Below, piece by piece: positions 24,697 through 43,449 of a stretch of DNA of 51,110 bases. The notes beneath the pieces are model-generated. The model was not told where the DNA came from. It searched no databases and saw nothing but the letters and a program-made list of their open reading frames with translations. The position numbers and the translations under genes were made by a program. The stretch's first letter is position 1. Each line of letters begins with the position of its first letter. The stretch is from assembly GCA_020725585.1 (NCBI GenBank), contig DYES01000075.1, positions 1 through 51,110 on the forward strand, read 5' to 3'. The stretch comes from Desulfovirgula sp. GTDB taxonomy: Bacteria > Bacillota > Desulfotomaculia > Desulfotomaculales > Nap2-2B.

Positions 24697-24719
24697 TTTA
24701 GTTTCTTCACCCCTCATGG

Positions 24720-25472: not shown

Positions 25473-25565
25473 CGGCATCAACCTGTTCCAGATAGTAAAA
25501 TGAATTCCAATATATGAATTAAATTAGACACTTTTTCTCTTTTTCCTTCTGTCCTGATCCAAAAT

Positions 25566-27212: not shown

Positions 27213-27242
27213 AGGGAAACCCCCCTAAACTAAAAAACCCTG

Positions 27243-27291
27243 AAAAATACAACTCTTGTTGCTGCCGGGACAAAGCCGCGGCAGCAACAAG
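27243..27291 (-). terminator. Hairpin/terminator between dctP and the flavoprotein gene
   Basis: CTTGTTGCTGCCG (27255-27267) pairs perfectly with CGGCAGCAACAAG (27279-27291). On the minus strand a TATTTTT tract follows about six bases after the stem. It probably gives partial termination, raising dctP mRNA relative to downstream genes. Confidence 0.65.
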
Positions 27292-27315
27292 AAACGCCCG
27301 CTGTCTTTTCAGCTG

Positions 27316-28398
27316 TTAGCTCTTGACAATTTCTTTGCAGACTTTCTCAAACTCCTCGTAGACTTTCTTGCCGGGGAGCCCCTTCTTTTCCATGTCCTGG
27401 ATCCACTCATTCTCTATTCCTTTGAGGGGCTCGCGCCACTTTTTCTGCTCTTCCGGCGTCAAACGGTAGATGACCATGCCCTGTTTTTCAAATTCCACGG
27501 CCAGCTCTTCTTGCTGTTTGTCAATCACTTCCCCCGCGTGCTTGCTGGTTTCTTCGCCGGCCTGCAGCAGCGCCTTTTGAATGTCGGCAGGCAGTTTCTC
27601 CCACGTTTTTTCGTTAATCACGTAGGCCACCGGGTAACCTCCAAAGGCCGCCCCCAAGGTGTGGTATTTTTCCAGCTCGTAGACCCGGTAGCCTTTGACG
27701 CTCACGTAGCTTAAGAAGTTTCCTTCCACGATCCCCCGCTGGGTAGATTCGTATATTTCAGGAGAAGGAACCACCACGGGCGTTACGCCGTATTTCTGCG
27801 CGATTTTATCGTAGATGCCGCCCGAGGTCTTGATCTTCATTCCCTTGAGGTCCTCCGGCGATTTGATTTGCTTTTTCACGGTGCCTACGTCGTACTGGGG
27901 CGTCGTGTACACAAAGATTGGCCTTACGCCGTACTTTTTAAATTCATCCATCAACACGCCGCCGGCGAGACGGTGGTAAATGGCGCTCCCTTCTTTAGCG
28001 GTAGTGTAGTTGGGGAGTACCATGACGGTATTGAGCGGCAGCTGGCCCGCCAAAAAAGTAGGGGCGACGTAAGCGATGTCGGCTACACCCTGGCTGGTGA
28101 GGTTCAACAGGTCTTTTAATTTACCCAGCTGCTCGGCGGGGTAATACTCGATTTTAACCTTTCCGTTGGTGAGCTCCTCCGTGCGCTTGATAAAAAACTT
28201 CGCTATGTCGGCCGAAAAGAGATGCGTTACCGGAAAAGAATCGGCCATTTTTAATTTGATCTCCTGCTGTGCCTCCTGCTTCGCCTGGGGCTGCTCCTTC
28301 TTCTCTTCAGCAGCCTTCTGGCCGCCGCATCCGGCAGCCAAAAGCGCAACAAACGCAAAAAGGGCGGCTGCCGCCAAAAGGCGCAAAAACTTTTTCAT
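27316..28398 (-). CDS. dctP: TRAP transporter substrate-binding lipoprotein (DctP type)
   Basis: The 360-residue protein begins with a lipoprotein signal peptide (MKKFLRLLAAAALF to LLAAGC) and a charged linker. The DctP fold follows (IKLKMADSFPVTHLFSADIAKFFIKR, then EDLKGMKIKTSGG with the conserved arginine region altered, and VEGNFLSYVSVKGYRVYE). It delivers a carboxylic acid to DctQM from outside the membrane. Two conserved-region tyrosines and an EKYHTLG segment fit the family. AAGGAGG precedes the ATG. It is third in the order dctQ-dctM-dctP. Confidence 0.92.
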   Translation of the reverse strand: MKKFLRLLAAAALFAFVALLAAGCGGQKAAEEKKEQPQAKQEAQQEIKLKMADSFPVTHLFSADIAKFFIKRTEELTNGKVKIEYYPAEQLGKLKDLLNLTSQGVADIAYVAPTFLAGQLPLNTVMVLPNYTTAKEGSAIYHRLAGGVLMDEFKKYGVRPIFVYTTPQYDVGTVKKQIKSPEDLKGMKIKTSGGIYDKIAQKYGVTPVVVPSPEIYESTQRGIVEGNFLSYVSVKGYRVYELEKYHTLGAAFGGYPVAYVINEKTWEKLPADIQKALLQAGEETSKHAGEVIDKQQEELAVEFEKQGMVIYRLTPEEQKKWREPLKGIENEWIQDMEKKGLPGKKVYEEFEKVCKEIVKS

Positions 28399-28536
28399 TT
28401 TTAATAATACCTCCTTCTTTACTTTCGAGCCTTAGATACCATAAGGTTCTGTGCACAGCGCTTCACCTTTTACGCCGCATCCTTCCGGACCCATCCACCT
28501 CCCTCCAAGAAAATATTATGAAAATGATTGATTAAC

Positions 28537-29826
28537 TCAGTACTTCATGAAAGACGGCAGCCAGGTGGCAATGATGGGGAAGGACAACAGCAAACCGAGA
28601 GTGACCACCTCCATCGCCAGCATGACCCCCGTTCCCCGGAAAACCTGATCGAGGGGGGCTTTTACAGTGGCGCTCACCACATAAGCGTTTAATCCTACCG
28701 GAGGCGTTACCAGGCCTATTTCGTTCAGCTTGGTAACAATCACGCCAAACCAGATGGGATCAAACCCCAGGCCGGTCACCAGGGGAAAGGTCAGCGGGAG
28801 CGTCAACAGCAAGATGGCGATCTGATCCATGATGCAGCCGAGGATAAGGTATAAAACAACTATGCAACCCATGATCGCCCAGGCAGGAATCTGGGACTGG
28901 CCGATATAATTAATCACCTTTTGGGTGGCCTGCGTGAGGGTAAAAAAGTACCCGCAGACCATGGCGCCGATAATAATGGTAAAAATCATGGTGGTTATTT
29001 TCGCCGTCTGCAGGGCGGCTTCGTAAAGCCCTTTCAAATTAATCCGGCGGGTTGCCGCGGAAATCACCAGCGCGCCAAAAGCGCCAATCGCCGCGGCTTC
29101 CGTCGGGGTGGCCACACCGGCATACAGAACGACAATCACTACGGAGCCCAAAATAACAAACGCCCACAAAGGACGGAGCGAGGCAAATTTTTCCGGCCAG
29201 CTGTAAGCCTGGCCGCGGGGCATTACACCTGGAGAAACTTTGTTCCAGAGGATAATTCCCAGGCAGTAAACCAGGGCGGTCAAAAGACCGGGAAGAATAC
29301 CGGCGATAAGCAGTTTGCCGATGGACGTTTCGGTGGCGATGCCGTAGATGACCATCGGTATGCTGGGTGGGATCATCACGGCCAGGGTGCCGGCTACGGC
29401 CACGATCCCCGTCGAAACCGTGAGCGAATAGCCCGCCTTGCGCATCTCCGGCACCGCGATGGCGGACATGCAGGCCGCCGAGGCCGTGCTGGAGCCGGAC
29501 ATGGCGCCCATGCCGGCGGAGGCGAAAATAGTAGCCATCGCCAGGCCCCCGGAAACCCGCCCCAACCATTTCTCGGCAGCGATAAAAACCTCCCTGACGA
29601 TGTTGGCCCGGGAAACAATCTCCGCCATCAGGATAAACATAGGCACCGTGGTCAGCGAAAAATTTGCCGCCGTGCGGAAAGGCGCGTTGCTCATGATGCT
29701 CAAGACGGCGTCCGGGCCGCCCTCTAAAAACAGGCCGATAATGCCCGCCACGCCCATGGCAAAACCCACAGGCATCCCCACAAACAAGAAGAGAAGAAGC
29801 AGGATCAGCACTGAAGCAACGATCAT
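28537..29826 (-). CDS. dctM: TRAP transporter large permease subunit (DctM)
   Basis: The 429-residue, highly hydrophobic protein has about 11-12 membrane helices, and the DctM motifs GAMSGSSTASAACMSAIAVP and GTLAVMIPPSIPMVIYGIAT are plain. It is the sodium-coupled transport channel of a TRAP system. ATG 29826 has GGAGG seven bases upstream. The TTG at 29832 is rejected as lying between them. The 5' end is 22 bases from the dctQ stop codon. Confidence 0.93.
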   Translation of the reverse strand: MIVASVLILLLLFLFVGMPVGFAMGVAGIIGLFLEGGPDAVLSIMSNAPFRTAANFSLTTVPMFILMAEIVSRANIVREVFIAAEKWLGRVSGGLAMATIFASAGMGAMSGSSTASAACMSAIAVPEMRKAGYSLTVSTGIVAVAGTLAVMIPPSIPMVIYGIATETSIGKLLIAGILPGLLTALVYCLGIILWNKVSPGVMPRGQAYSWPEKFASLRPLWAFVILGSVVIVVLYAGVATPTEAAAIGAFGALVISAATRRINLKGLYEAALQTAKITTMIFTIIIGAMVCGYFFTLTQATQKVINYIGQSQIPAWAIMGCIVVLYLILGCIMDQIAILLLTLPLTFPLVTGLGFDPIWFGVIVTKLNEIGLVTPPVGLNAYVVSATVKAPLDQVFRGTGVMLAMEVVTLGLLLSFPIIATWLPSFMKY

Positions 29827-29848
29827 TGACAAACCTCCGCCTATTTAG

Positions 29849-30358
29849 TTAATGCTCCTCCCACTTTACCGAGGAAGGAATAAAGATCGCCTGAATAATT
29901 CTTACGCACAGCAGTGCGGAGCCCAAAGTCAGGAGAAAATAGGCCGGGGCCAGCGGGTAGGCCAGGATGCAGGCGGAAAACTCGCCAAACCGGACGGCCC
30001 TTAGCGTAGTCTGCCAGCCCATGATAGCGATGAGGGCAAAAAAGACCAGGGCCAAAAAGTTTAAAAATATATCCAGAGGCAGCTTCACCCGCTCCGGAAA
30101 AAACCTCCGAAACAACACGACGCGTACGTGCCCACCCTGCATAAAGACATAGCTCATAGCCAAAAAAACCAGGGCAATCATTAAATATTCTTCGGTGATC
30201 TCCACTACGCCGGGAATCGGGTGGTTGAAAAACTTCCGTCCCGTTACGTCGGCGGTGACCAGCAGCATCATAACTAATACGCTGCACACACTCAAAGCGG
30301 CGCAGGTTTTTTCCAGAACATCGATTGCCTTCCCCAAAATGCTTAAAACGGAGCGCAT
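29849..30358 (-). CDS. dctQ: TRAP transporter small permease subunit (DctQ)
   Basis: The 169-residue protein has four predicted membrane helices and the DctQ features RKFFNHPIPGVVEITEEYLM and GHVRVVLFRRFFPERVK. It pairs with the DctM encoded downstream to form the membrane part of the transporter. ATG with GGAAGG upstream. It follows the IclR gene by about 50 bases. Confidence 0.9.
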   Translation of the reverse strand: MRSVLSILGKAIDVLEKTCAALSVCSVLVMMLLVTADVTGRKFFNHPIPGVVEITEEYLMIALVFLAMSYVFMQGGHVRVVLFRRFFPERVKLPLDIFLNFLALVFFALIAIMGWQTTLRAVRFGEFSACILAYPLAPAYFLLTLGSALLCVRIIQAIFIPSSVKWEEH

Positions 30359-30406
30359 AGAACCATACCCTTCCTGATAACTTTAAAGGATAACTTTAAA
30401 GCACGT

Positions 30407-31165
30407 TCAGTCCTTACACCCCAACTGCCTGGAAATCTTCCGCCCCCCTTCCAAAAGCAGCTTAATGCAGTAATCCATTTTTTCCGGTTCCGCCCGGATT
30501 TCCGGCATGCCAATCGATAAACTCGCCGCTACCTCCTTGAACCGGTCAAAAACGGGAACGCTGATGGCCACCAGTCCCTCGTTCCGTTCCCCCCGGGTAA
30601 CGGCATAGCCCTTTTGCCGGATTTCGGCCAGCCTGGCGCGCAGTTTTTCTTTGTCGGTTTCCGTATTTTTCGTAAAGGGTTTCAGTTCTAAACTATCGAT
30701 AATTTTCTCTCTTTTCAGATCATCTTGAAAAGCCAGCAAAACCAGTGCCGAAGCCCCTGCGTAGAGAGGGGAACGCTGCCCGATGTCCACCGAAGCCTTC
30801 ACCGGGTGCGCGCAATCCAAAAACTCCACGCACACCCGCTCTCCTTCGGAGATTATGTTCAGGTGGACGGCTTCGTTGGCTTTATCCCTGATCTCCCGCA
30901 TCACCGGCAGGGCGGCCGCGCGCACCTCGATCTGGCCGACCACGATGCTCCCCAGGTCAAACAGGCGCATTCCGAGTTTGTATTTTTTTGTTAATTTGTT
31001 CTTTCTTAGCATTCCAAATTTTTCTAAAGTATTTAAAAGGCGCAAAACGGTTGGCTTCGACATTTTCAATTCTTTGCTTAACTCCGCCAGGCCCCATTCC
31101 GGTTGTTCCCTGCTGAATTTACCGAGAATGACCAGCGCCTTTTCCACTGAACCGACAGTTTTCAT
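30407..31165 (-). CDS. IclR-family transcriptional regulator
   Basis: The 252-residue protein has a winged helix (GLAELSKELKMSKPTVLRLLNTLEK at about 25-49) and an IclR effector domain (EAVHLNIISEGERVCVEFLD, GQRSPLYAGASALVLLAF, RQKGYAVTRGERNEGLVAISVPV). It is first in the TRAP operon and probably controls uptake. It resembles the IclR at 32977-33741 more than the one at 24720, with the shared pattern GQRSPLYAGASA, suggesting a duplicated pair with related ligands. Confidence 0.91.
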   Translation of the reverse strand: MKTVGSVEKALVILGKFSREQPEWGLAELSKELKMSKPTVLRLLNTLEKFGMLRKNKLTKKYKLGMRLFDLGSIVVGQIEVRAAALPVMREIRDKANEAVHLNIISEGERVCVEFLDCAHPVKASVDIGQRSPLYAGASALVLLAFQDDLKREKIIDSLELKPFTKNTETDKEKLRARLAEIRQKGYAVTRGERNEGLVAISVPVFDRFKEVAASLSIGMPEIRAEPEKMDYCIKLLLEGGRKISRQLGCKD

Positions 31166-31368
31166 TCCAAGATCCTAACCAGCTTCCTTTTTTGCCTGAA
31201 TTTGCTGGTATATTTCACATAGTGTTACGGCATTTCACCATTAGTTACTCTTGATCTATCATGACTTTTCTTCAAAAGACAACAGTTGCTCCCCCAATGG
31301 TTGTAATCGCGGCTTCAATGGTTTCTATTCACGTCTAAACTGCGCAGCCCCCAACATTTAAAAATGTT

Positions 31369-32964
31369 TTAGGCGATGGGCCTGGTCACCGAGTAAGAAA
31401 GACCAAAAGTAGGTATCCAGGCGGAATGCTTTCCCGCTCCCCCGGCCACTAGAATGTTCAGATCGGCCGCCTCGCGGCAAATCCCGATGGTCTGGTTCTC
31501 GTCAACGTAGCCGGCAGCATCCGGCAGCCAGCTTTTGATGTGCGCGAGCTGCCCGGGGGACATTTTCGAAGCAGGCACCCTCGCCCGGGCGAACAGAAAA
31601 CGGCGCACGTCCTCTTTGCTCCAACCGTCCCCGGCGATGGTGGCCGCGTGCTCAGGCCCGAGGAATAAAAATGCGTCCCCCTGGTGGTAAAGATTATTGT
31701 TTCCCGTGGTGGCCATCGTCCCGGCAATTGTCGTTAAGATCCCTTCGGCGTCCGTGCTCCCGTGGTCGTTGACGTTGTGCGGAGCTTCCGCGGCCACGAC
31801 GGTTACCGTGCTTGCTTCGCGCGGGTACCCCCTCTCCACATGAAAGGGCGGCCAGGGGCTTTCTGCTTCGTTTTCCGCCACACAGTAACTGTATTTACCG
31901 GGCTGGCCCATGGTGGACTTGTCCAAAAGGCCGGGCACTCCCCCGCCGATATTCTGCAGGATCAAGCGCATGGCCCGGCCGATGGTGGCGTTGGCCCGCC
32001 AGCCCTGTCCAAAGCAGTTATGCCCGGCGTTAATCTCTAATTTTCCGGCCGCCGGGCCGTTGACGATTAACAGCACGCCGCAGGGGTGGGTGGTCGACTG
32101 CACGCCGTTGAGGTTGAAGCGGGGGTCCAGTACCGCCTCGACGCCCGCCAGGACCACCGGCAGGTATTCTGGGAGGCATCCGGCCAGGATGCAATTTACG
32201 GCCACCTTTTCCACCGTCACGTCCGCCCAGCGGGGAGGCATCCGGCCGATCACTTCCTGCGGCTGCCTTGTGCCGGCGTGGCGCAAGAACTCCTCTAAAG
32301 CCTTTTCCGTGGGCAATACCACGGGCAGGCCGTCCGTCCAGCCCTGCCGATAAAAATAATCCGCCGCCTGCTGCGGATCGGAAAAAGTCAAGCGCTCCGG
32401 CTGGATTTCCCGTTCAGGGGGCAAACAAGCGCCGGCCTCTTTCCCGGCGGACGCCGCGAGCTGCTTGCTCAGCCTTTCCAAAGCCACCTTGACCGCCGCC
32501 TGGACCTCCGCTTCCTTCAAACCGCCCAGAGGGTGGGGAATGACCAGAAAAGCAAGGCCGCTTTTTTGCAAAGCACAGGCCTGGGCCCTGGCCAGAGCAG
32601 TAAAACGATCGGTAATCACCGTAACCGTGCGCACGCCTTTGTTTTCCAAAACCACCGCGTCGTGGACACTCCACGAGGCGCAAGACCCTCAATCGCCCAC
32701 ACCGTTAATCACAATTTCCGCCCTTTCGGCAAGCTCATTCAAGAGATCCTCCGGGGCGGGGTGGGCCGAGCTGGCCTTGGCTGCTCGCACAATGGAAGCG
32801 GGACGGAAACGGGTCAAAACAAGGTCGGCCAACCGGTCAAAGAGAAAATCAACGTTTGGCTTGTTGTTGCTTAAAAAAGCCAGGCGCTTCCCCTGCAGTA
32901 CAAAGGGAGCAGATACCGCCTCTTCCTTTGGCGGGTGTGCTGCGGGATTGCAAACCACCAACAT
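31369..32964 (-). CDS. UGSC-family selenoprotein, long form (TGA at 32689-32691 read as selenocysteine)
   Basis: Codons 32964-32692 read MLVVCNPAAH to EIVINGVGD. An in-frame TGA follows, then GSCASWSVHDAVVLENKGV, giving the motif U-G-S-C that names this family (Sec92, Cys95). The frame then runs uninterrupted to 31369, 531 residues in all. Reading TGA as a stop would leave a 91-residue stub and an orphan whose first start (GTG or TTG) lies past the motif. The long C-terminal part (from YFYRQGWTDGLPVVLPTEKA, with VNCILAGCLPEYLPVVLAGV) is an uncharacterised domain often seen with UGSC proteins. ATG 32964 has AAGGG eight bases upstream. It follows IclR by 12 bases. A redox role for the Sec/Cys pair is inference. 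Confidence 0.87.
32657..32691 (-). other. Selenocysteine TGA codon and SECIS-like hairpin
   Basis: After the TGA (32689-32691), bases 32676-32671 (TCGTGG) pair perfectly with 32665-32660 (CCACGA) around the 5-base loop AGTGT. A lower stem GCG/CGC is separated by a two-base bulge. The apical loop starts 19 bases after the TGA and has G at its second position. Both fall within the known limits for bacterial SECIS elements read by SelB. Confidence 0.75.
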
Positions 32965-32976
32965 ATTCCTCACCCT

Positions 32977-33741
32977 TCAATAAAGTTTGTACCCCAGCCG
33001 GCGGGATATCTCCCGGGCGCCCGCTTTGACCAGCTCAACAAAAAAAGGAATGTTTTTATCGTCCGCGCGCACCGTTGGCAGGCCGATCGCCAGGCTGGCC
33101 GCGATCTCCTCCTGGTGGTTGAAGACCGGCGCGCTGATGGAAAAAACACCGATAATCAGCTCGCTGTTGCTGACGGCGTAGCCTTTCTTCCGGATGTCGG
33201 CCAGCTCCGCTTCCAGCTGCACCGGATCGACAATTGTCCGCGGGGTGAGCGCTTTTAATTTTACCTTCGCCAGAAATTCCCTTCTTTTATGCTCCGGCAA
33301 ATAGGCCAGCAAAACCTTGGCGGAAGCGCCTGCGTAAAGGGGGCTTCTCTGCCCCACAAAGACGACCCGCTGCAGCTCTTGATTTGATTCCACGTACTCT
33401 AAGCACATCCGCTCGTCGTTTTCAATTATGTTTAAGTAAACGGCTTCTCCGGAGCGGTCCCGGATCTCTTTCATGACCGGCAGGGAAACTTCGCGAATTT
33501 TTAACCGCCGCTGAACAATATTTCCCAAATACAGCAATTTCGTGCCCAGGCGATATTTTCTTGTGTTCTTGTCTTTTTCCAGATAATTAGTCTTTTCTAA
33601 AGTTGCCGTCAGCCTGATGACGGTTGTTTTCGGCATGCCCACCAGGGCAACGAGCTCACCGATGCTTAATTCCGGCCTTTCTACTGTAAATGATTCTAAA
33701 ATTTTGAACGCCTTCAAAACAGAACGGACGTCATTTTCCAT
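32977..33741 (-). CDS. IclR-family transcriptional regulator
   Basis: The protein of about 254 residues has a winged helix (SIGELVALVGMPKTTVIRLTATLEK) and an IclR effector domain (EAVYLNIIENDERMCLEYVE, GQRSPLYAGASAKVLLAYLP, RKKGYAVSNSELIIGVFSIS). ATG 33741 is used. A TTG at 33747 is possible, and both have weak ribosome sites. It ends in TGA, an ordinary stop that shows TGA is not globally recoded. It lies between the acyl-CoA dehydrogenase and the selenoprotein genes, with 19 and 12 base gaps, so all three are one operon. Confidence 0.9.
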   Translation of the reverse strand: MENDVRSVLKAFKILESFTVERPELSIGELVALVGMPKTTVIRLTATLEKTNYLEKDKNTRKYRLGTKLLYLGNIVQRRLKIREVSLPVMKEIRDRSGEAVYLNIIENDERMCLEYVESNQELQRVVFVGQRSPLYAGASAKVLLAYLPEHKRREFLAKVKLKALTPRTIVDPVQLEAELADIRKKGYAVSNSELIIGVFSISAPVFNHQEEIAASLAIGLPTVRADDKNIPFFVELVKAGAREISRRLGYKLY

Positions 33742-33760
33742 AACCAATCATAAGCCCCCG

Positions 33761-34921
33761 TTACCTGCGCTGATCGAACCTTCTCCCCAGCAAGGCGGAA
33801 GCTATGTTGATTCGCTGGATCTGAAGAGTTCCGCCGGCCACCGGCCAGCCGCGGGAGTCGCGGACCATCCTCTCGATGGGGTATTCTTTAGAATACCCGT
33901 AGCCGCCGTGGATCATGAGGGCCATGTCGGTTACCTCTTTGGCGATTTCCCCGGCAAAGCATTTCGCGATGGAAGAATGGAGCACGGAAGGATAGCCCTG
34001 GCTGGCGTTGACGGCGGCGCGGTAAATCAGCAGGCGGGCCGCCTCCACTTTCATGACCATGTCGGCCAGCATGAACTGCACCGCCTGAAATTCGCAAATC
34101 GGCTTTCCGAACTGCTTTCTTTCCTGGACGTACTTGATGGATTCCTCCAGCGCTCCCGCCGCCAGGCCCAAAGACATGGTCGCGTTGCCCAGGCGCTCGA
34201 TGTCAAAGGCCCGCATTAAATCTTTGAAACCGCCCTCTTGAACGACCAGATTTTCTTTGGGCACCCGGCAGTCTTCGAAAATGAGGTCGCAGCTGGGAAA
34301 GCCCCGAAAGCCCATAAAGCGCTCCTGCTTGCCGAAAGTAAAGCCGGGGGTGCCCTTTTCAATAATCAGCCCGCCGATTCCCTTGGCTCCTTTCGCCTCG
34401 CTTAAGCGCACGTAAACCACGTAGGCCTGGGAATGGCCGCCGCCCGAGCAAAACCTCTTCTGGCCGTTGACCACGTAATAATCCCCGTCCAAAACCGCCC
34501 TGGTTCTCAGGTCGGTCAAAGCCGAGCCCGCTTCCGGTTCCGTCATTCCGACCGAGATCATGATTTCGCCGCTCGTTACCCGCGGCAGGTATTTTTTCTT
34601 TTGCTCTTCCGTGCCGAACAGGTGAATGACCCGCGCCGGCCCCACGTTGGCCTCAAAAATGGGAAAAGCGGCCAGCGGCGAAACTTTGGCAATTTCCTCA
34701 ATCACTAAAATGGCCTCGAAGGCCGTGAGCCCCTGGCCGCCGTACTCCTCCGGCAGCGTTATCCCTAAAAGCCCCAAATCGGCGTACTTTTGAATAATCT
34801 CGTCCGGGACAAACACTTCCTTTTCGTCCCACTCGCCGGCATAAGGCCGGATCTCCTTTTCCACAAAATCGCGCACCATGTCCTTGAGCATTTTTTGTTC
34901 ATCGGTAAGCTGGAAATCCAT
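33761..34921 (-). CDS. Acyl-CoA dehydrogenase with relocated catalytic glutamate
   Basis: The 386-residue protein has the ACAD signatures VGMTEPEAGSALTDLRTRA and MIHGGYGYSKEYPIERMVRD. At the usual base position the expected Y-E-G-T reads A-G-G-T (Gly363). A glutamate instead occurs at residue 242 in FDIERLGNA, the helix-G position that supplies the base in isovaleryl-CoA and long-chain dehydrogenases. A branched or bulky acyl-CoA substrate is therefore likely. ATG 34921 (MDFQLTDEQ) matches family starts, and GGGGTG lies 10 bases upstream. ATG 34951 adds ten unlikely residues. It heads an operon with IclR and the UGSC selenoprotein. Confidence 0.9.
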   Translation of the reverse strand: MDFQLTDEQKMLKDMVRDFVEKEIRPYAGEWDEKEVFVPDEIIQKYADLGLLGITLPEEYGGQGLTAFEAILVIEEIAKVSPLAAFPIFEANVGPARVIHLFGTEEQKKKYLPRVTSGEIMISVGMTEPEAGSALTDLRTRAVLDGDYYVVNGQKRFCSGGGHSQAYVVYVRLSEAKGAKGIGGLIIEKGTPGFTFGKQERFMGFRGFPSCDLIFEDCRVPKENLVVQEGGFKDLMRAFDIERLGNATMSLGLAAGALEESIKYVQERKQFGKPICEFQAVQFMLADMVMKVEAARLLIYRAAVNASQGYPSVLHSSIAKCFAGEIAKEVTDMALMIHGGYGYSKEYPIERMVRDSRGWPVAGGTLQIQRINIASALLGRRFDQRR

Positions 34922-35026
34922 CCGAACCGCACACCCCTCTATCCTAAACATAAAATTTTGTCTTTAAACTATTTTCATATTTCGCAATTACATATTTGAC
35001 TCTTAAGGTTTTCACTCTCCGGCGAT

Positions 35027-35165: not shown

Positions 35166-36029
35166 TTAATCTAAACCTAAAAGCCGGGCCGGGTTTTCGA
35201 CAAGCATGCGCCGGATCTGGTCCGGTCTTATCCCCGCCTGGAGCAATAAATTGACGAAATCGATCATGCCGGCCGCCGGGCGCGGGTTGCCCGGCTGCCC
35301 CAAATCGGTGACCAGCACGCAGTGCTGTGCTCCGGCAGCGTTAATGCCGTCTGCCATCTGCTTTGCCGAAACGTCCCCCGTGATCACGTTAAGGTAGCAT
35401 TTTTCCAAAAAAGCCCCTTTACCGGCCAGGGTGAGTTGATCCTCCAGGGGCAAGCCGATAAATGCAGCGTCGGGATGGTTGACCAGCAGCTTTTTCACGC
35501 CCACCTCCAGAGCGCGGTCAACCAGAGCCTTGATTTCCTCTGCGCCCAAATGCCCGGTAGCCACCACCGCGCCGGCCCGGGCGGCCAGGCGCAGAATATC
35601 AATTACCTGGGGGAAAAGCTTTCCCGGAGAAGCAAAAATCGAAAGACCTTCTCTGGCCGGCCCCGCCTGCGGGGTAAACGGGCCTTCGCCATGCCTTTTT
35701 AAAAAATCAAGATAATTCTGTGCGGAAATAGTCGGAAACCAGACGAACTTTGCGCCCATGGAAAGGGCCGCTTCCACCGCCCAAACGTTAAACCCGCCTA
35801 CCTGGTGATTGAGAACGATCCCTCCGTAGGCCGCCGCCCCGCCGGCATATTTGTGCGTCAAATTAGCGCGTGCAACGCTGGGGCACTCGTGGGCTTTAAT
35901 CACCACCGCCCGCATCCCCGCGGCACGCGCTTCGCGGGCCAGCTCAAAATCATCCAGCGCGCGGTGAAAAAGGCTAGGAGCGCAGTGGGTGTGCAGGTCG
36001 ATGGCGCCCGCCGGCAAAAAATTGGCCAA
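35166..36029 (-). CDS. DUF6282-like metal-dependent hydrolase (amidohydrolase/PHP-like)
   Basis: The protein of about 287 residues begins MANFLPAGAIDLHTHCAPS, with His13 and His15 as likely metal ligands. Further metal-type motifs are VIKAHECPS, VLNHQVGG, VATGHLGAEE, VNHPDAA and VTDLGQPGNP. The layout is a TIM-barrel hydrolase. I place it in the DUF6282 type from memory of this motif order. The TTG at 36029 is chosen because GGGAGG lies eight bases upstream. The TTG at 36035 is too close. It follows the second TRAP permease gene. Hydrolysis of a cyclic amide, lactone or amide in the imported substrate is inference. Confidence 0.8.
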   Translation of the reverse strand: MANFLPAGAIDLHTHCAPSLFHRALDDFELAREARAAGMRAVVIKAHECPSVARANLTHKYAGGAAAYGGIVLNHQVGGFNVWAVEAALSMGAKFVWFPTISAQNYLDFLKRHGEGPFTPQAGPAREGLSIFASPGKLFPQVIDILRLAARAGAVVATGHLGAEEIKALVDRALEVGVKKLLVNHPDAAFIGLPLEDQLTLAGKGAFLEKCYLNVITGDVSAKQMADGINAAGAQHCVLVTDLGQPGNPRPAAGMIDFVNLLLQAGIRPDQIRRMLVENPARLLGLD

Positions 36030-36211
36030 AACCAAGACCTCCCTAAATTCTACCTTAAAAATCTACGTTCTTTGATGGGCCTAAAATAGACTTAAAATTA
36101 ACTTTCCCAAACTTAATCCAATATAAAAGAACCCTACAGAACCACTTTCGTCAAAATTTTATTTTTCCCTTTTGTTTCCGGTTTGTTTTTCGAAACAGTT
36201 TTTACAGTATT

Positions 36212-37483
36212 TTATTTCACCAGCATTAAGCTTAATTTCGGTACATAAGTCACCAGCAAAAGAACCGCCACCATGACCAAAGCAAAAGGAATGGCCCCCC
36301 ACAGCACCTTCTCTATTCTTTCCCTGGTGATCCCGCTCAAAATAAACAAATTCATACCCAGCGGAGGCGTAATCAGAGCCAGCTCCATATTAATACAGAA
36401 AATGACTGCAAAATGAATGGGATCGATCCCCAGCTGGCGCATGATGGGCAAAAAGATAGGCGAGGTTAAGAGCAAAATGGAAGTGATATCTAAAAAACAA
36501 CCCAAGATCAGGAGAATTCCGTTCACGATCAACAAGAAGGCCACCGGCGAAAGGTCTCCGGCTAAAACGGCAGCGGTAACCGTCTGGGGAATTTTCAACA
36601 TGGTCAACACGTAGCCAAACACGGTCGCCCCGCCGATAATCAACAGAATCATCGCGCTGGAACCGGCGGACTCCCCCAGCACCTGGATAATATCTTTGGG
36701 CTTGAGCCCTTTGTAAATCACCAGGGCGCACAAAAAAGCATAAACCACGGACATTCCCGCCGCTTCGGTGGGCGTGGCGACCCCCCCGTAAATTGTCCAG
36801 GCAATCAAAACGGGCAATAAAAGCACCCAAAAGGCTTTTTTCAACGCCCGCCACTGCTCCGGCCAGGGCGCTCTCTTTACGCTGCGGGCCGCCTGGTCCC
36901 GGCCAAAAACGATCATTCCGGCAAAGATTAAAGCCAAGGCGAGAATTATCCCCGGGATCACGCCGGCCAAAAATAGTTTGCCTACCGACTGCTCCGCAAC
37001 CGTCCCGTACACGATCATCGGTATGCTGGGAGGAATTAGAATGCCCAGCCCTCCGGCCACGGCGATGATCCCCAACGTGTATTTGGTGTTGTAGCCCCTC
37101 TTAATCATCTCCGGAGCGAGCACAGAACCGATGGCCACCGCGGTAGCCGAGCTGGAGCCGGAAATAGCCGCAAAAAAAGCGCAGGCGATGACGGCTACCG
37201 TGGCCAAGCCCCCGCGCAGGTGCCCAAAAACCTTTTCCACCGCTTCGATTAAATAATTGGTCACTCCCCCGCGCACCAAAACGTCGGCGGCCAGGATAAA
37301 AAAGGGGACGGACATCAGGGTGAAACTGTCCACGGAGACAAACATCATTTGGGGAACAGCCGTTAAGGCACTGGGCCCAACCATCAGGTAGAGCAGAAAC
37401 AGACCGGCCAGGCCGAGAGAAAAAGCCACCGGCAGGCCGCACAACAAAAAAACAAAAAGGGTAATGATCGCTAAAGCCGTCAA
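36212..37483 (-). CDS. dctM: TRAP transporter large permease subunit (DctM), second system
   Basis: The protein of about 423 residues is highly hydrophobic, with DctM motifs AAISGSSSATAVAIGSVLAP and GGLGILIPPSIPMIVYGTVA. TTG 37483 has AGGTG seven bases upstream and begins directly at the first helix (MTALAIITLFVFLLCG). The TTG at 37519 would add 12 polar residues. It is the last transporter gene in the order dctP-dctQ-dctM, unlike the first TRAP cluster. Confidence 0.92.
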   Translation of the reverse strand: MTALAIITLFVFLLCGLPVAFSLGLAGLFLLYLMVGPSALTAVPQMMFVSVDSFTLMSVPFFILAADVLVRGGVTNYLIEAVEKVFGHLRGGLATVAVIACAFFAAISGSSSATAVAIGSVLAPEMIKRGYNTKYTLGIIAVAGGLGILIPPSIPMIVYGTVAEQSVGKLFLAGVIPGIILALALIFAGMIVFGRDQAARSVKRAPWPEQWRALKKAFWVLLLPVLIAWTIYGGVATPTEAAGMSVVYAFLCALVIYKGLKPKDIIQVLGESAGSSAMILLIIGGATVFGYVLTMLKIPQTVTAAVLAGDLSPVAFLLIVNGILLILGCFLDITSILLLTSPIFLPIMRQLGIDPIHFAVIFCINMELALITPPLGMNLFILSGITRERIEKVLWGAIPFALVMVAVLLLVTYVPKLSLMLVK

Positions 37484-37604
37484 AAAGGCACACCTACTTT
37501 CCCTTAAATCACCTTGCAATTAAAAATTCCCACATGCCTGATTGCTAGCTCCTTAATTACTTCATTACCTTACCTTACTTTATTTAAGCCTTTTACTTTT
37601 CAAA

Positions 37605-38126
37605 CTATCTTTTTGAACCGCCTTCCAAAGAAGATGAGCTGGCTAAACTAAGAATATTTTCATAAACTTTTTGGCAAAAACGAAAAAGCATCAAAATGCC
37701 TCCTGCCGGGACGGCCAGTTGGGGTATGTACATGGGGAGCTGCAGGCTGGACATGGAGGTGGCGCCAACGCGAATCGACTGCTGCACCAGCCCCCAACCC
37801 TTCACGGCCAACAGCGCGCAAAAAACAACCCCTAGAAGATAAGCAAACGTCTGCAAAATTAAGCGCTGCCTTTTTGCCAGGCGGACAATTAAAACATCAA
37901 TGGTGATGTGCCCGTTCCTCCTTAAAAGAGCGCTTCCCCCGATAAAGGTTGACCAAATAATCAGATAGCGAATAATTTCTTCAAAGGCAGAGACTGAGTA
38001 GTGAAATAAATACCTGAGCACCACTCCGATAAACACCAAAAGAGAAGCCGCTCCCAAAGAAATTCCGGACAGCCAGATCTCGGCGGTATCGACAAACCCG
38101 AGCAGAGAAGAAAATTTATTGCGCAA
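37605..38126 (-). CDS. dctQ: TRAP transporter small permease subunit (DctQ), second system
   Basis: The 173-residue protein has four predicted helices with DctQ-type features (YLFHYSVSAFEEIIRYLIIW, RRNGHITIDVLIVRLAKRQR). The start is TTG with AGGAGG eight bases upstream. A 217-bp gap separates it from dctP upstream. That gap has a G/C-rich patch but no clear terminator or gene. Confidence 0.9.
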   Translation of the reverse strand: MRNKFSSLLGFVDTAEIWLSGISLGAASLLVFIGVVLRYLFHYSVSAFEEIIRYLIIWSTFIGGSALLRRNGHITIDVLIVRLAKRQRLILQTFAYLLGVVFCALLAVKGWGLVQQSIRVGATSMSSLQLPMYIPQLAVPAGGILMLFRFCQKVYENILSLASSSSLEGGSKR

Positions 38127-38343
38127 AAATCAGCCCTCCTAAGGTATGTGATCAAAAGTATAAAATCCAAATTACGAACTAGATCTTAGGATAATTTTGC
38201 TCTTGCAAAACATTAACGAAATTTGTTGCGGGGGTATCGGCAGGGCAATTCTTTTTCAACTCAAAAACCATTATCCGCCCCGGCGCCGGCACCCCCGAAA
38301 AACATTCCTTGGGAATACATTTAGTTAAATCTTTAAATCTAAT

Positions 38344-39384
38344 TTATTTAATGCTCCTCACCTTGGCGATTAACTCCTGGCCGATCGCTTTCCCGTATTC
38401 GTCATAGACAGCCTGCAACGCCTTTACCCATCGCTCGTGCTCCTCGGGGGCCAGCTCGTGGATCTGCATGCCGCCCTCCTGAAGAGTCTTTAAAGCATTT
38501 GCTTCCTGGCTCTCTAATTTCTGCCGGTTTTGCTTGGTGGCTTCCGCAACCGCTTCCTGCACAACCTTCTTTAAATCGTCCGGCAGAGAGTTCCAGAACT
38601 GCAAATTCATCACCACTGGATAGGCAATGGCGCTGATGCGCACTTTGGTCAGGTGCTTGGTAATTTCGTAATACTTGTTGGGCGCCGCGTAAGTTACCGT
38701 GGTTAAGGCGCCGTCCACAATCCCTTGTTCAAGGGCCAGGTATAATTCACTGGCCGGCATGGTAATTGCGCTGCCCCCCAGAGCTTTAATGCTGCTTTCT
38801 AAGATCCTCGTGTGCGCCCGGATTTTTTTGCCTTTTAAGTCGGCAATTTTCACGATCGGCTCCTTGCTGAACAAATCCAGAGGAATGTTGGATATGTAGC
38901 CTAACCCTTTCACGCCCTTAGGTTCCAGCATGGCCAGCAGCTCCTTGCCCACATCGCCGTCTTGAAACTTATACAGCGCCTCCTGGCTGGAAAACATCAT
39001 GGGCAGGTCAACTACCTGGAACTGGGGAACAACTGCCGACACGTAGCCTGTGCTGGGAATGGCCATCTGAATTAAGCCGTTAATCACCGCCTGAAAACCG
39101 GCTTCTTCAGAGGCATACAGCTGCCCCTGGTGAAAAAGCTCCACCTTAATTTTACCGCCGGACTTTTCTTCCACCGCCTTCTTGAAATCCTCCGCCCAAA
39201 CGCCTTTGCTGTGGGTAGCCGGGGACTCGTGAGCAAGCTTAATTACGTAAGTTTTGTCCGCACCTTTTTCGCCGCCGCCGGCCTGCTTCTCCTCCTTCCC
39301 GCCGGCGCCGCAGCCGGCCAGCAGCGCAAGGGCAAAAAGAACCGCCAGGAACAAGCAAGACACTCGAAACTTATTGCCGGCCAT
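38344..39384 (-). CDS. dctP: TRAP transporter substrate-binding lipoprotein (DctP), second system
   Basis: The 346-residue protein has a lipoprotein signal (FLAVLFALALLAGC), then a charged glycine-rich linker. The DctP fold follows: YVIKLAHESPATHSKGVWAE, ADLKGKKIRAHTRILESSIK with the conserved arginine in KIRAHTR, and LALEQGIVDGALTTVTYAAP. This is a more typical DctP than the one at 27316. ATG 39384 has GGAGG ten bases upstream. It follows the D-glutamate-cyclase-like gene by about 60 bases and so is probably co-transcribed with the AtuA set. Confidence 0.92.
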   Translation of the reverse strand: MAGNKFRVSCLFLAVLFALALLAGCGAGGKEEKQAGGGEKGADKTYVIKLAHESPATHSKGVWAEDFKKAVEEKSGGKIKVELFHQGQLYASEEAGFQAVINGLIQMAIPSTGYVSAVVPQFQVVDLPMMFSSQEALYKFQDGDVGKELLAMLEPKGVKGLGYISNIPLDLFSKEPIVKIADLKGKKIRAHTRILESSIKALGGSAITMPASELYLALEQGIVDGALTTVTYAAPNKYYEITKHLTKVRISAIAYPVVMNLQFWNSLPDDLKKVVQEAVAEATKQNRQKLESQEANALKTLQEGGMQIHELAPEEHERWVKALQAVYDEYGKAIGQELIAKVRSIK

Positions 39385-39445
39385 CTTCAAATCGCCTCCC
39401 TTATACTGTTTTTTAATATTCTGTTTTTTAACTGTCCTTGTATTT

Positions 39446-40480
39446 TTATTTACAATTTTTTAATCCCTGGCGAACCAATTCACCCAAAAGTGTAACAAAA
39501 GCCTGGTGAACGGTTGACGCCAAACCATCGGCGCTGGGTTCCACGTAACCGGTAATGCCGTCGATGAAAGAGGCCGCTGCGGCTGCCCGCAAAATTCTTT
39601 CTTCCACCACGGCGTCATGGAAAACCTCTGTTTTTCCGAGCACGGCCGCCAAACAGGCCGCCACGCCGTAGGCTCCCCAGTTCGAGATGGCCGCCGTGAC
39701 CAGCACGTCGGTAATGGTCGAAGGGGCTATTCCTCCCCCGCAGCCGCAAAGACACCTGTCTCCGTAAGGTATGCTTTCCCTGATTCCCTCGCGTATCACC
39801 CCCATTCCGATCTCGTTGCCCCCGTCGCCGATACCAATGGTGCCAATTCCCCTGCTGGCTGCTTCCTGCATCAGAAAATCTACCTTCGCCATGTGCTCGG
39901 TTGTATCGGCCCCCCGGCTGGTATGAATTTTCCCTTTCTCGTTCATGCCCCCTTTCTCAATAGCAATTACTGCCGCCGGCGCATAAAGCGCCAGCAATTC
40001 CTTCGCCCTTTGCGCCGCTTTCCCTGGGTCGGCCGGAAAGCCCAACACCCCTGCCGCATGAATAGGTGCCGTGGAGGCAGACGCCTGGATAGCTTCTTCA
40101 GGAGAAAGCACCCTTAAGCCGGCCGCTTCCACTACCCGGCTCATCGCCCCCACTAAATTTTCCTCGACGAAGATAAAAGGCACCGCACCCAGGCCCTTGT
40201 GCAGGGCGCGCGCCAGCGCCGCCGCCCCCGGGGGGCCGTCCGTTTCCGCAATAGCCGGGGTGATGTGCGGCCGGTCCGGCCAGCCGGTGGCGATAAAAAC
40301 CACGTCTCGGGGTTGAACTCTATTGCACAAAAGCTCTGCGGCAGCCAGTGAAAGAGGTTTGGCGCACTTTTTCCGGGCGTACGGGTAAAGAATATGGATT
40401 ACATTGCGCGAAGGCACATCCAGCGTAATCAACTGATCAATTCTTTCCCCGATCTTTATTAATTGCTCTTCAGCCAGCAA
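39446..40480 (-). CDS. D-glutamate cyclase-like (DUF4392) protein
   Basis: The 344-residue protein matches the DUF4392/D-glutamate cyclase C-terminal-like family: VVFIATGWPDRPHITPAIAETDGPPGA, VIAIEKGGMNEKGKIHTSRG, and GIGTIGIGDGGNEIGMGVIREG. Mammalian D-glutamate cyclase turns D-glutamate into 5-oxoproline. Bacterial members are mostly uncharacterised. TTG 40480 has GGTGA six bases upstream. Its place between DUF4387 and a TRAP dctP suggests it acts on the imported or derived acid, perhaps forming or opening a lactam. Confidence 0.83.
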   Translation of the reverse strand: MLAEEQLIKIGERIDQLITLDVPSRNVIHILYPYARKKCAKPLSLAAAELLCNRVQPRDVVFIATGWPDRPHITPAIAETDGPPGAAALARALHKGLGAVPFIFVEENLVGAMSRVVEAAGLRVLSPEEAIQASASTAPIHAAGVLGFPADPGKAAQRAKELLALYAPAAVIAIEKGGMNEKGKIHTSRGADTTEHMAKVDFLMQEAASRGIGTIGIGDGGNEIGMGVIREGIRESIPYGDRCLCGCGGGIAPSTITDVLVTAAISNWGAYGVAACLAAVLGKTEVFHDAVVEERILRAAAAASFIDGITGYVEPSADGLASTVHQAFVTLLGELVRQGLKNCK

Positions 40481-40557
40481 TTCTTCTCACCTTCCCCTTA
40501 AACCGGACCTGGGTATTTCGACAACCGGTAAAATCTCGCGAAGACACCTGCCGCTTA

Positions 40558-40884
40558 TCACTGTTCCACAGGAACTTCTATGTCCAGTAACGGCGGGTAC
40601 TGCTGGCAGCCGAAGATATCGGATTCGCCGGGGCTGCCGCTGGGCCGGGTGCGGTAAATGGTGAATTTAATGGCGTTGGCGGGATCGAAAAAGACAAAAT
40701 CCGAAATCCGCTTTTCGTCGATGCCATAGAGCCGGGCGATGCTTTCTTTCGCAATTACGCCGCTTTTTTTGACCAGTTCGTAATTCTTCTTCTCCCGGAA
40801 AATGATGTCGAAGGTTATCTTATCCACGCCGGCGTTTTTGCTGCGGATGGTTTTGGCCAGGTCGGCCAGCTTGACGGTTTTCAT
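40558..40884 (-). CDS. DUF4387 family protein
   Basis: The 108-residue protein starts MKTVKLADLAKTIRSKNAG and continues with KITFDIIFREKKNYELVKKS, the typical DUF4387 layout. The family is of unknown function and commonly adjoins AtuA-like genes, as here. ATG 40884 has AAGGAG ten bases upstream. An earlier ATG at 40923 has no such support. It probably works with the AtuA-like protein as a partner subunit. Confidence 0.87.
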   Translation of the reverse strand: MKTVKLADLAKTIRSKNAGVDKITFDIIFREKKNYELVKKSGVIAKESIARLYGIDEKRISDFVFFDPANAIKFTIYRTRPSGSPGESDIFGCQQYPPLLDIEVPVEQ

Positions 40885-40987
40885 GCCGAATTCACTCCTT
40901 TTCCATAACGGGTGCATTGTCAAGACGATTAAATACGCTTAAATACAAAACAGAGATAAAGCCGAAATAAAACAAGAAGAAAATGGT

Positions 40988-42355
40988 TTACACGCCTGCT
41001 TCCGTAAGCTGAACGGAAAATAGCTCCAGGGGGTCGTCCACCGGCACGGTATGATTCATCGTCCAGACGTAGGCAGGAGTCGCCGGCAGAACTTCGTCGA
41101 CGATGAAGGCGGCGCTGCCGGCCGTGCCCTTGACTTCCGGCAGGCGGGCGTAAAAGATCTGCCGGGTGCCGATCATGGTGACTTCTTCGGCCATTTCTTT
41201 GGTCGGCGCCACTCCTTCCACAACCACGCACAGCTCGTGCGAACGGATTTCTTTCACCGGTTCTAAGTCGCCCATCACCCCGTTTTTGCCGAAAATGTGG
41301 TAGTGCAGTTCGTAGCCCGCGTCGCCGAACCTCTCTTTGGCCTGGTCCCTGGCCCACTGGATAACCCGCTCGATATTGCAAATGGTGTAGGGGTCGCGGA
41401 TGCCCGCGATGCCGATGTACCTTTCGCCCACCTTTCCCGCGCCTTCTATTTTTACCCGCATTTCCTGCGCGGGGATAAACTTCGGCCCCGTAATGCGGGT
41501 GGTTTTCTCGTCAAATTGTTCGTACCTGCATTCGGTCATGTCCAGCATGCCGCCGGGGACAAATTCGTAAAAGGGGTTGGCGCGCTCGTACATGGCGTGG
41601 CCGGCCACTGAAGCCACCGTACAGCGCTGGTCGGGGTGCATGGCGGTAACCTTGACGTCTTCGTCGGAAATGGTCCCGATAATCGTTTCCTTTCCCCCGT
41701 AGGGCTCCGCGCAGAAGGAAGCACACTCCAGCACCTTGCCCAGGTAATAGGACAGCGCTTCCGGGAAGCCCGCCCGGATGGCCGGCGCGGCAAAAATCAC
41801 AATATCGCTGGAGCGCCCGCCGATGATTACCTCTGCCCCCATGTCCAAAAGGCGCACGTAGGGGTGAATTCCCGCCACAGCAACAATTCGGTCCGTCTTC
41901 TCAATGTCCTCTAAGGTAAGATCTGGCCTCCCGTCCAGCCCCTGGATCACTTTCCCCTCCTTAATTTTCTGCCGCAGGTAGTCTTTGCTTACCTCCGAAT
42001 AAAAGTAACCGAGCTTAAATTTCGGGAGGCGGTGCTTTTCGGCAAGTTCCTTAATAATCTGCACGTAGAGGTCCACCCGGCTGTTCGTTCCCGTATCCCC
42101 TGCGGAGCCGATGATCATGGGCACGCCCAGCCGGCGGGAAGCAAGCAGCATGTGCTCCAGATCATGCTCCTGCCACTGCCGGGGACTGGTGGAAATATCC
42201 GCGCCCAAAGGCACGGGGCCGATGTCGCAGCTCCCCGAATCGGCCAGGATGAAGTCCGGCTTCGTTTCCACCCCCCGGTAAAAGCTCCCGGTTTTAATCG
42301 GCGCAAAGCCTAAGTGGCCGTTGGGACAAAGAAAGCGCAGCGTCCTTTTTTCCAT
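40988..42355 (-). CDS. AtuA-like acyclic terpene utilisation family protein (DUF1446)
   Basis: The 455-residue protein matches the AtuA/DUF1446 family: GSCDIGPVPLGADIST, GSAGDTGTNSRVDLYVQII, VIIGGRSSDIVIFAAPAIRAG. In Pseudomonas, AtuA is needed for citronellol and geraniol use, but many members sit in non-terpene catabolic clusters. ATG 42355 follows GAGGAGG and an AAAAGG at good spacing. Starts further upstream lie in AT-rich promoter DNA. It is the first gene of a likely long operon with DUF4387, the cyclase-like gene and TRAP genes, divergent from a GntR gene. Confidence 0.87.
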   Translation of the reverse strand: MEKRTLRFLCPNGHLGFAPIKTGSFYRGVETKPDFILADSGSCDIGPVPLGADISTSPRQWQEHDLEHMLLASRRLGVPMIIGSAGDTGTNSRVDLYVQIIKELAEKHRLPKFKLGYFYSEVSKDYLRQKIKEGKVIQGLDGRPDLTLEDIEKTDRIVAVAGIHPYVRLLDMGAEVIIGGRSSDIVIFAAPAIRAGFPEALSYYLGKVLECASFCAEPYGGKETIIGTISDEDVKVTAMHPDQRCTVASVAGHAMYERANPFYEFVPGGMLDMTECRYEQFDEKTTRITGPKFIPAQEMRVKIEGAGKVGERYIGIAGIRDPYTICNIERVIQWARDQAKERFGDAGYELHYHIFGKNGVMGDLEPVKEIRSHELCVVVEGVAPTKEMAEEVTMIGTRQIFYARLPEVKGTAGSAAFIVDEVLPATPAYVWTMNHTVPVDDPLELFSVQLTEAGV

Positions 42356-42440
42356 TAATCCTTTTCCTCCTCTTTGTTCTTCCCGCCTGAAAACAAATTT
42401 TCCAACCATTGAAAAGAAAAACGAAAACTTCGTCTCTTTT

Positions 42441-42677
42441 GTGGTATTAACCACTTAACCATTGATGGCTAACATGTATATACCACTTTTTTGTTTACTT
42501 CTTCATGAATTTCAAATTTCCTTCTTCGGAAAAAAATCAAGAAAATTTTTTTATTTTTATAATGGTTCAGACTGGCGGGGCAAAAGGCCGGGAGGGCCGG
42601 GAAATAATGCTTGACGGGAGCTTTTCGGCCGTGTTATGCTATTTGCCGGAACGATCCCGAACTTGATATAACCACTT
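42441..42677. promoter_or_regulatory. Three GntR-type operator sites in the AtuA-GntR divergent region
   Basis: The inverted repeat GTGGT-ATTA-ACCAC (42441-42454), the HutC-like GTATATACCAC (42476-42486) and GATATAACCAC (42665-42675) each run into ACCACTT. UTRA-type GntR proteins bind GTnTAnAC-like sites, and GTATATAC fits exactly. The third site sits between the GntR promoter and its start codon, so auto-repression is likely. Confidence 0.55.
42611..42640 (+). promoter_or_regulatory. Promoter of the GntR gene
   Basis: TTGACG (42611-42616) and TATGCT (42635-42640) are separated by 18 bases, close to a housekeeping promoter. Transcription would start near 42647, just before the third ACCACTT site. 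Confidence 0.55.
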
Positions 42678-42702
42678 GTTCTACGCTGCAGGAGGGAAAA
42701 GG

Positions 42703-43449
42703 TTGCTCTCGCCGCAAAGCGCCATACCGCTGTACCAGCAGTTGAAAGACGACCTGCGGGAAAAAATCAAAACTGGGGCCCTCGGGCCCGACGAACGCCT
42801 CCCGTCGGAACGGGAGCTCTGCGCGCAGTACCACGTCAGCCGGATGACGGTGCGCCAGGCCCTGGCGGAGCTGGTCAACGAAGGGCTTTTGTACAGAACG
42901 CACGGGAAGGGAACTTTCGTAGCCCGGCCGCGCATCGACCAGGAACTGGTCAGGGTCACGCCCTTTGAAAGCACGCTGCGCAGCAAGGGGCTGCGCCCGG
43001 CGACGAAAATCCTCGGCTCCAGGATGGTCAGCGCCGACTACGAGATGGCCACCGCCCTGGCCATTCCCCTCTTAAGCCCGCTGGTCAACCTGACCCTTTT
43101 GGGGTTGGGCAACGAGCAGCCGGTGGCCTATTACAGCGCGTACTTTCCCGAAAAGATCGGCCATAAAATGGTGGAAGCGGCCCGCCTGCGGCTGAGCCAG
43201 GGGGTTTCTTTTACCACCTACGACCTATACAACGACCTGCCGGAAGTCAGCCCGGCCCGGCTTACGCAGTCCTTCGAGGCAATCGCCGCCGACGACCGGC
43301 TGGCTGAAATTTTGCAAGTTTCACCGGGAAAACCCTTGATGCACATTACGACGGTAGTCTACTTAGAGGACGGCAGGCCGTCAGAATACAGGCATTCCTA
43401 TTACCGGGCGGACATGTACCGGTTCCACATCACCCGCCCGGCAAAGTAA
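42703..43449 (+). CDS. GntR-family regulator with UTRA domain
   Basis: The 248-residue protein has an N-terminal GntR winged helix (PLYQQLKDDLREKIKTGAL, LPSERELCAQYHVSRMTVRQALAELVNEGLLY) and a UTRA effector domain (about 85-245, with QLVRVTPFESTLRSKG-like start and SEYRHSYYRADMYRF end). Such HutC-like regulators are usually induced by a substrate of the neighbouring pathway. TTG 42703 has AGGAGG seven bases upstream. The TTG at 42676 precedes that site. It diverges from the AtuA operon, its probable target. Confidence 0.92.
   Translation: MLSPQSAIPLYQQLKDDLREKIKTGALGPDERLPSERELCAQYHVSRMTVRQALAELVNEGLLYRTHGKGTFVARPRIDQELVRVTPFESTLRSKGLRPATKILGSRMVSADYEMATALAIPLLSPLVNLTLLGLGNEQPVAYYSAYFPEKIGHKMVEAARLRLSQGVSFTTYDLYNDLPEVSPARLTQSFEAIAADDRLAEILQVSPGKPLMHITTVVYLEDGRPSEYRHSYYRADMYRFHITRPAK

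Follow-up and report, generated by a model that had tools for sequence, protein, structure and literature searches.

Organization of the locus

The window, a stretch of 51,110 nucleotides of DNA from Desulfovirgula sp., is one entire contig (DYES01000075.1) of a genome of 2.37 Mb that is 83% complete. We studied a group of its genes that encodes an AtuA-family protein, a DUF4387 protein, a D-glutamate-cyclase-like enzyme (GLUCM), and a tripartite ATP-independent periplasmic (TRAP) importer (Table 1). AtuA and DUF4387 are predicted to be the two subunits of a carbon-carbon (C-C) lyase of the kind known as citramalate lyase, and the window pair belongs to a second, separate branch of that family.

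Genes were assigned by Pfam-A, and each named family was far over its curated cut-off. A previous interpretation made from the sequence only (hereafter, the sequence-only reading) had placed these genes and a complete importer in one orientation, and the Pfam-A matches bear this out: DctP, DctQ, and DctM were all matched, all of the named genes between positions 35166 and 42355 lie on the minus strand, and the GntR/UTRA gene is divergent on the plus strand. The sister genome (G398, same genus) has the identical order GntR / AtuA-DUF4387-GLUCM-DctP-DctQ-DctM; because the order is repeated there, it is not a chance arrangement. In the sister genome, an IclR gene follows directly after DctM, and the DUF6282 gene is on another contig, beside a different TRAP set. 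In the window, a 176-base gap separates DctM from DUF6282. The lyase unit is the region 36212-43449; the block joins two units, and the borders given in the sequence-only reading were too wide. Promoter and terminator scans gave matches at about the shuffled expectation.

Table 1. Positions of the genes and features in the window
Feature	Position	Strand	Match or remark
GntR/UTRA (HutC-type) regulator, divergent from the operon	42676..43449	+	PF00392, E 1.4e-24; PF07702, E 9.9e-27
AtuA, predicted large subunit of a CmlAB-type C-C lyase	40988..42355	-	PF07287; PDB 9erq_A
DUF4387, predicted small subunit, CmlB type	40558..40884	-	PF14330, E 7.8e-38; PDB 9erq_B; start codon inferred from sequence
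GLUCM (GLUCM-like_C, formerly DUF4392), D-glutamate-cyclase-like metalloenzyme, proposed lactam/lactone/amide opener	39446..40480	-	PF14336, E 6.8e-74
DctP, TRAP solute-binding protein	38344..39390	-	PF03480, E 9.2e-77
DctQ, TRAP small permease	37605..38126	-	PF04290, E 2.4e-32
DctM, TRAP large permease, last gene of the unit	36212..37519	-	PF06808, E 7.4e-118
DUF6282, amidohydrolase-like (His/Asp motifs by eye), judged outside the lyase unit	35166..36035	-	PF19799, E 7.8e-68
UGSC protein, predicted selenoprotein	31369-32973	-	In-frame UGA at 32691-32689, motif DUGSC
Second block: acyl-CoA dehydrogenase (ACAD), two IclR, selenoprotein, second full TRAP, fumarate-reductase-type flavoprotein, third IclR, ADP-forming acyl-CoA synthetase	22549-34951	-	IclR and second TRAP labels by eye; acryloyl-CoA-reductase-like score of ACAD below cut-off

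AtuA and DUF4387 as the subunits of a lyase

A profile of seven AtuA sequences found one relevant molecule in the PDB (9erq/9evf); two myosin light chains, at E 0.9 in the same search, were rejected as chance matches. The large chain was deposited as 'acyclic terpene utilization AtuA family protein / citramalate lyase, subunit A (cmlA)'. The window AtuA alone matched 9erq_A over residues 4-445 (E 5.9e-79), and the window DUF4387 matched 9erq_B, 'citramalate lyase, subunit B (cmlB)' (E 9.8e-22). A structure model of the window AtuA made with 45 sequences as input (predicted local distance difference test score, pLDDT, 87.4) matched 9evf_A with a template modelling (TM) score of 0.89 and an E-value of 1.2e-52, and no PDB chain besides 9evf was found at E <=0.001 in the structural search with this model. 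We took the function of 9erq/9evf from the PDB molecule names and one entry title, that of 9evf, 'Citramalate lyase - ADP - pyruvate complex'.

A CmlA copy on a Salmonella plasmid scores 978 bits against the solved chain, and the gene order there is glmS-glmL-glmE-mal-AtuA-DUF4387-symporter-glsA-fumarase-cobO; the solved CmlA is in essence the protein of enterobacteria whose gene follows that of methylaspartate ammonia-lyase (MAL). The same gene, as DUF1446, was noted downstream of mal in 2015 and given no function (PMC4682846). Our literature search returned no paper naming DUF4387 and no paper on AtuA as a citramalate lyase.

One scan of the species-genome collection gave 337 AtuA relatives, of which the best 80 were kept as named relatives; the neighborhood counts below refer to genes within 8 kb of AtuA in these 80, and some of the loci are cut by contig ends. 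The DUF4387 gene lies directly 3' of AtuA in all 80, and the two are also adjacent in the window. Cupriavidus necator also carries the pair. The pairing is obligate, and the family and fold of both subunits are established. From the sequence matches and the model, AtuA and DUF4387 appear to be the two subunits of a C-C lyase of a known kind; the 'poorly known chemistry' of the sequence-only reading is outdated for this pair. Its fold is known, its reaction class would be known as well, and its branch is new, with the reaction itself proposed by analogy. The caution of that reading that the AtuA label may mislead was right in effect, as the sole solved relative is a citramalate lyase. A family annotated as terpene utilization, together with DUF4387, would then be a family of C-C lyases, with a solved structure for one of its branches.

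A clade separate from CmlA

In a tree of 92 AtuA sequences, which included every second locus of the 80 named ones plus the locus L101 (41 in all), 48 window-type rows were split from 44 CmlA-type rows with support of 100/100. The window AtuA is 67-91% identical to the 80 sequences of its own type and 33-38% identical to 27 MAL-linked sequences. Sixty-five positions are common to >=97% of 81 window-type and >=93% of the 27 MAL-linked sequences, and thus the core has been kept; 40 further positions are switched, that is, fixed differently between the two types, and thus the substrate probably differs. Among 48 loci examined in the window's phylum, AtuA was nearer to CmlA in 42, with MAL nearby in 26 of them, and nearer to the window type in six, with MAL nearby in none.

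By sequence, the window pair is not orthologous to CmlAB and falls in a second, separate clade. A role for it in methylaspartate/citramalate fermentation was rejected: a MAAL_C match is absent from both the window genome (83% complete) and the sister genome, and methylaspartate-pathway genes, MAL included, occur at none of the 80 named loci. Since this separate and widespread branch, found under at least five phylum labels, is accompanied by importers and amide-opening enzymes, it probably splits an imported acid different from citramalate.

On a Klebsiella plasmid (L166), AtuA-DUF4387 lies beside aldehyde dehydrogenases, an alcohol dehydrogenase, and fumarase, and the methylaspartate genes are not present; this may be a further substrate branch.

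Importers, regulators, and amide-type enzymes near AtuA

The apparent operons (in a listing that omits some overlapping genes) are minimal, with a varying importer, a regulator, AtuA-DUF4387, and little else. The importers near AtuA included an oligopeptide-type binding protein (26 loci), a Na+ symporter (17), a DctM-like permease (17), TctC (12), DcuC (4), and TRAP DctP (1, the sister genome). The importer is interchangeable among TRAP, SSF, DctM-like, Dpp-type ATP-binding cassette (ABC), TctC, and DcuC systems. In several relatives, such as the TctC or SSF loci, the lyase is accompanied only by an importer and a regulator, which implies that the free acid itself can be the import. For the window DctP, solved relatives at E <=1e-30 are named TRAP/C4-dicarboxylate-type DctP, and one is isethionate-binding.

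Exactly one amide-type enzyme was found at 42 of the 80 loci, and two kinds together at none. These were an N-terminal nucleophile (Ntn) hydrolase of PF03417 (AAT; 21 loci), a C26 hydrolase of PF07722 (19 loci), and GLUCM (2 loci). The C26 proteins have the CRG nucleophile motif in 20/20 sequences, and the Ntn proteins have DGC in >=80% of 21. The interchangeability of these enzymes is suggested by the counts.

A GntR homologue (phmmer) was found at 24 of the 80 loci. Within the 350 bases preceding AtuA, the palindrome TTATNACNNGTNATAA occurs with 0-1 mismatch at 12 of 21 GntR-bearing loci; among 1050 base-shuffled copies, three had it at one mismatch and none at zero. The carriers are Moorella- and Desulfallas-type relatives (including L087-L093, L095, L098, and L104), in which it is a likely GntR operator as judged from its sequence. 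A shared operator in the window was rejected, as TTATNACNNGTNATAA is matched with no fewer than four mismatches before AtuA in the window and in its sister genome.

The D-glutamate-cyclase-like enzyme

GLUCM matched PF14336 with 249 bits (cut-off 27.9), and its residues E79, D81, E175, D219, E223, and D318, invariant in the alignment, align with the six acidic metal ligands of TON_0340; the window protein has a CxCxCG segment that TON_0340 does not. GLUCM is linked to AtuA in the genus of the window and in a single genome titled Deltaproteobacteria (locus L101), which has the order GntR/FCD-GLUCM-ABC importer-AtuA-DUF4387. The L101 GLUCM is 56% identical to that of the window (other full-length relatives seen, 36-45%), and the AtuAs of the two are not sisters in the tree. 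The linkage recurs in this second lineage. Of the sequence-only reading, TRAP uptake of a carboxylic acid, conversion by AtuA-DUF4387, and the lactam-type step are consistent with the evidence. In seven surroundings of GLUCM relatives on plasmids, six were beside transporter genes, and none was beside an annotated AtuA. The mammalian relative is a D-glutamate cyclase that converts D-glutamate to 5-oxo-D-proline (PMC5339696).

DUF6282, the UGSC selenoprotein, and the second block

DUF6282 was near AtuA in none of the 80 named relatives; in the L101 genome, some 320 kb separate the two. Across 398 genomes of the phylum, the window is the only place where any two of DUF4387, GLUCM, DUF6282, and the UGSC partner were found within 20 kb of each other. 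The survey counted 92 of 93 genomes for DUF4387, 42 of 43 for GLUCM, and 27 of 45 for DUF6282; left out were G141 (DUF4387, 27 bits), G241 (a weak GLUCM match), and those DUF6282 matches that did not exceed the cut-off. On two Natrinema plasmids, DUF6282 adjoins UGSC and its partner, and one of them has ACAD about 2.5 kb further; the DUF6282-UGSC linkage is thin. A structure prediction of DUF6282 from one sequence (mean pLDDT 48) was not used.

A five-family unit including DUF6282 and UGSC was rejected on the 80 relatives, the layout of the sister genome, and the 398-genome survey, and the sequence-only reading that DUF6282 and the ACAD/UGSC operon act in the same pathway is not supported by the same three results. 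As for co-occurrence in other genomes, AtuA-DUF4387-GLUCM-TRAP recurs in the sister genome, and the full gene set does not recur. DUF6282, ACAD, the UGSC selenoprotein, and the second TRAP set make up one or more separate units.

When the UGA in the UGSC gene is read through, the product contains DUGSCASW and gives a full PF24696 match (E 5.5e-40), fused to a domain of about 350 residues, for which several plasmids have a gene of its own next to it. UGA was present at the UGSC motif in 7 of 13 loci examined, the window included, and SelB is present in both the window genome and the sister genome; the gene is predicted to encode a selenoprotein. A hairpin after the UGA had a z of -0.34.

After the lyase operon, the sister genome (loci L063 and L064) has IclR, an NMT1-type binding protein, a fused TRAP permease, IclR, acyl-CoA synthetase, ACAD, and a carboxyltransferase. 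This stretch is a related but rearranged catabolic island.

Proposed route and its alternatives

We lean, with some reserve, towards a two-subunit C-C lyase that is fed by TRAP and acts on a hydroxy acid; upstream of this step, the cyclase-like metalloenzyme would open a lactam, lactone, or amide. The GntR/UTRA regulator would control the divergent operon, and DctPQM would import a small carboxylate. The GLUCM-type di-metal enzyme would open (or reversibly close) a five-ring lactam or lactone or an amide form of this carboxylate; as GLUCM, C26, and Ntn hydrolases are all enzymes of amide/lactam chemistry, they are proposed to unmask the acid. AtuA and DUF4387 would then act jointly as a coenzyme A (CoA)-independent C-C lyase of the CmlAB class, splitting a 3-hydroxy acid, R-C(OH)(R')-CH2-COO-; one product would be a 2-oxo acid or ketone, and the other would be acetate or another carboxylate. 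Both would enter central metabolism directly, which would make further dedicated enzymes unnecessary. The reaction and its direction, the CoA independence, and the hydroxy-acid substrate are taken by analogy with CmlAB, and the part given to GLUCM is likewise inferred; the title of 9evf names ADP, a hint that the cleavage may be nucleotide-assisted.

Several observations weigh against this proposal. In the sister genome, an acyl-CoA dehydrogenase and a carboxyltransferase are found further along the contig of the lyase operon, and these presumably recall Atu/Liu-type pathways. None of the three amide-type enzymes was found at 38 of the 80 loci, some of which are cut by contig ends. C26 occurs in Bacillota, Deinococcota, and one unplaced bacterium, and AAT in Pseudomonadota and Verrucomicrobiota; since the mutual exclusion of the amide-type enzymes tracks phylum, it may reflect descent, not exchange. 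The GLUCM-AtuA linkage comes from only two lineages, and DUF4387 and GLUCM co-occur at chance in the 398 genomes (9 genomes vs 9.7 expected). TON_0340, the GLUCM relative, was assayed as a weak phosphatase (PMC5132392).

A plain citramalate lyase would need no additional enzymes: TRAP would bring in (S)- or (R)-citramalate, AtuA-DUF4387 would cleave it to pyruvate and acetate, and GLUCM would be a bystander or serve glutamate pools. Both subunits match the solved citramalate lyase, solved DctP relatives carry C4-dicarboxylate-type names, and C4/C5 dicarboxylates are commonly carried by TRAP systems. We nevertheless regard this explanation as unlikely, given the separate 100/100 clade with its 40 switched positions, the 80 loci free of methylaspartate genes, and the recurrent linkage to amide-type enzymes. 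A further alternative is a D-glutamate/5-oxoproline route, in which GLUCM would be the entry enzyme and AtuA-DUF4387 would act on a glutamate-derived acid. MAAL_C is unmatched in the window genome (83% complete) and the sister genome, GLUCM is missing near AtuA in 78 of the 80 relatives, and the CxCxCG insertion of the window GLUCM has no counterpart in TON_0340; such a route is improbable, although GLUCM has the PF14336 match with six of six metal ligands, the enterobacterial CmlA serves glutamate fermentation, and the mammalian member forms 5-oxo-D-proline from D-glutamate (PMC5339696).

It seems very improbable that TRAP, AtuA-DUF4387, GLUCM, the DUF6282 hydrolase, and the ACAD/UGSC operon act in a single pathway on one compound. 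All of these window genes share one strand, DUF6282 stands beside UGSC and its partner on the two Natrinema plasmids, one with ACAD nearby, and a UGSC-type gene is near AtuA in one relative (L121). Against this, the four surveyed families are never paired within 20 kb in the phylum outside the window, DUF6282 is near AtuA in 0/80 relatives, the sister operon stops at DctM, and the presence of another TRAP set and of three IclR genes points to separate regulons.

Returning to the TRAP-fed hydroxy-acid lyase, a wider form of this proposal is conceivable, and we hold it only tentatively. Window-type AtuA-DUF4387 would represent a second class of hydroxy-acid lyase, widespread and independent of CoA, and would stand at the center of a complete catabolic route of two enzymes, in which a hydroxy acid masked as an amide, lactam, or lactone is imported, unmasked by one of the C26, Ntn, or GLUCM enzymes (unrelated and interchangeable), and split directly to central metabolites. 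In a bold form, GLUCM would open a 5-oxo ring (5-oxoproline-like, for example homocitrate-lactone-like), and the lyase would then release acetate, so that a 2-oxo acid, perhaps 2-oxoglutarate, is left. In the terpene route, EC 4.1.3.26 converts 3-hydroxy-3-isohexenylglutaryl-CoA to acetate and a 3-oxoacyl-CoA; this may be a cleavage of the same type, with release of acetate, and would then unify the AtuA family. A vague 'undescribed pathway' thus becomes a defined enzyme question, and a small substrate screen could tell what hundreds of genes with vague names do (337 relatives).

Comparison with known systems

The window pair shares with CmlAB (PDB 9erq, 9evf) the two-subunit AtuA-DUF4387 architecture, the fold (TM 0.89), and the 65 near-invariant positions. 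It differs from CmlAB in that AtuA is only 33-38% identical to the MAL-linked members and lies in a separate clade with 40 switched positions, and in that window-type loci have different partners and no methylaspartate genes. With the D-glutamate cyclase family (the C-terminal domain of DGLUCY/C14orf159, and TON_0340), the window GLUCM has PF14336 and the six acidic metal ligands in common; it is longer, carries the CxCxCG insertion, and has AtuA and an importer as neighbors. No terpene genes were identified among the scanned window proteins, a genome-wide search not having been made; what the window AtuA shares with the Pseudomonas AtuA is the Pfam family, PF07287.

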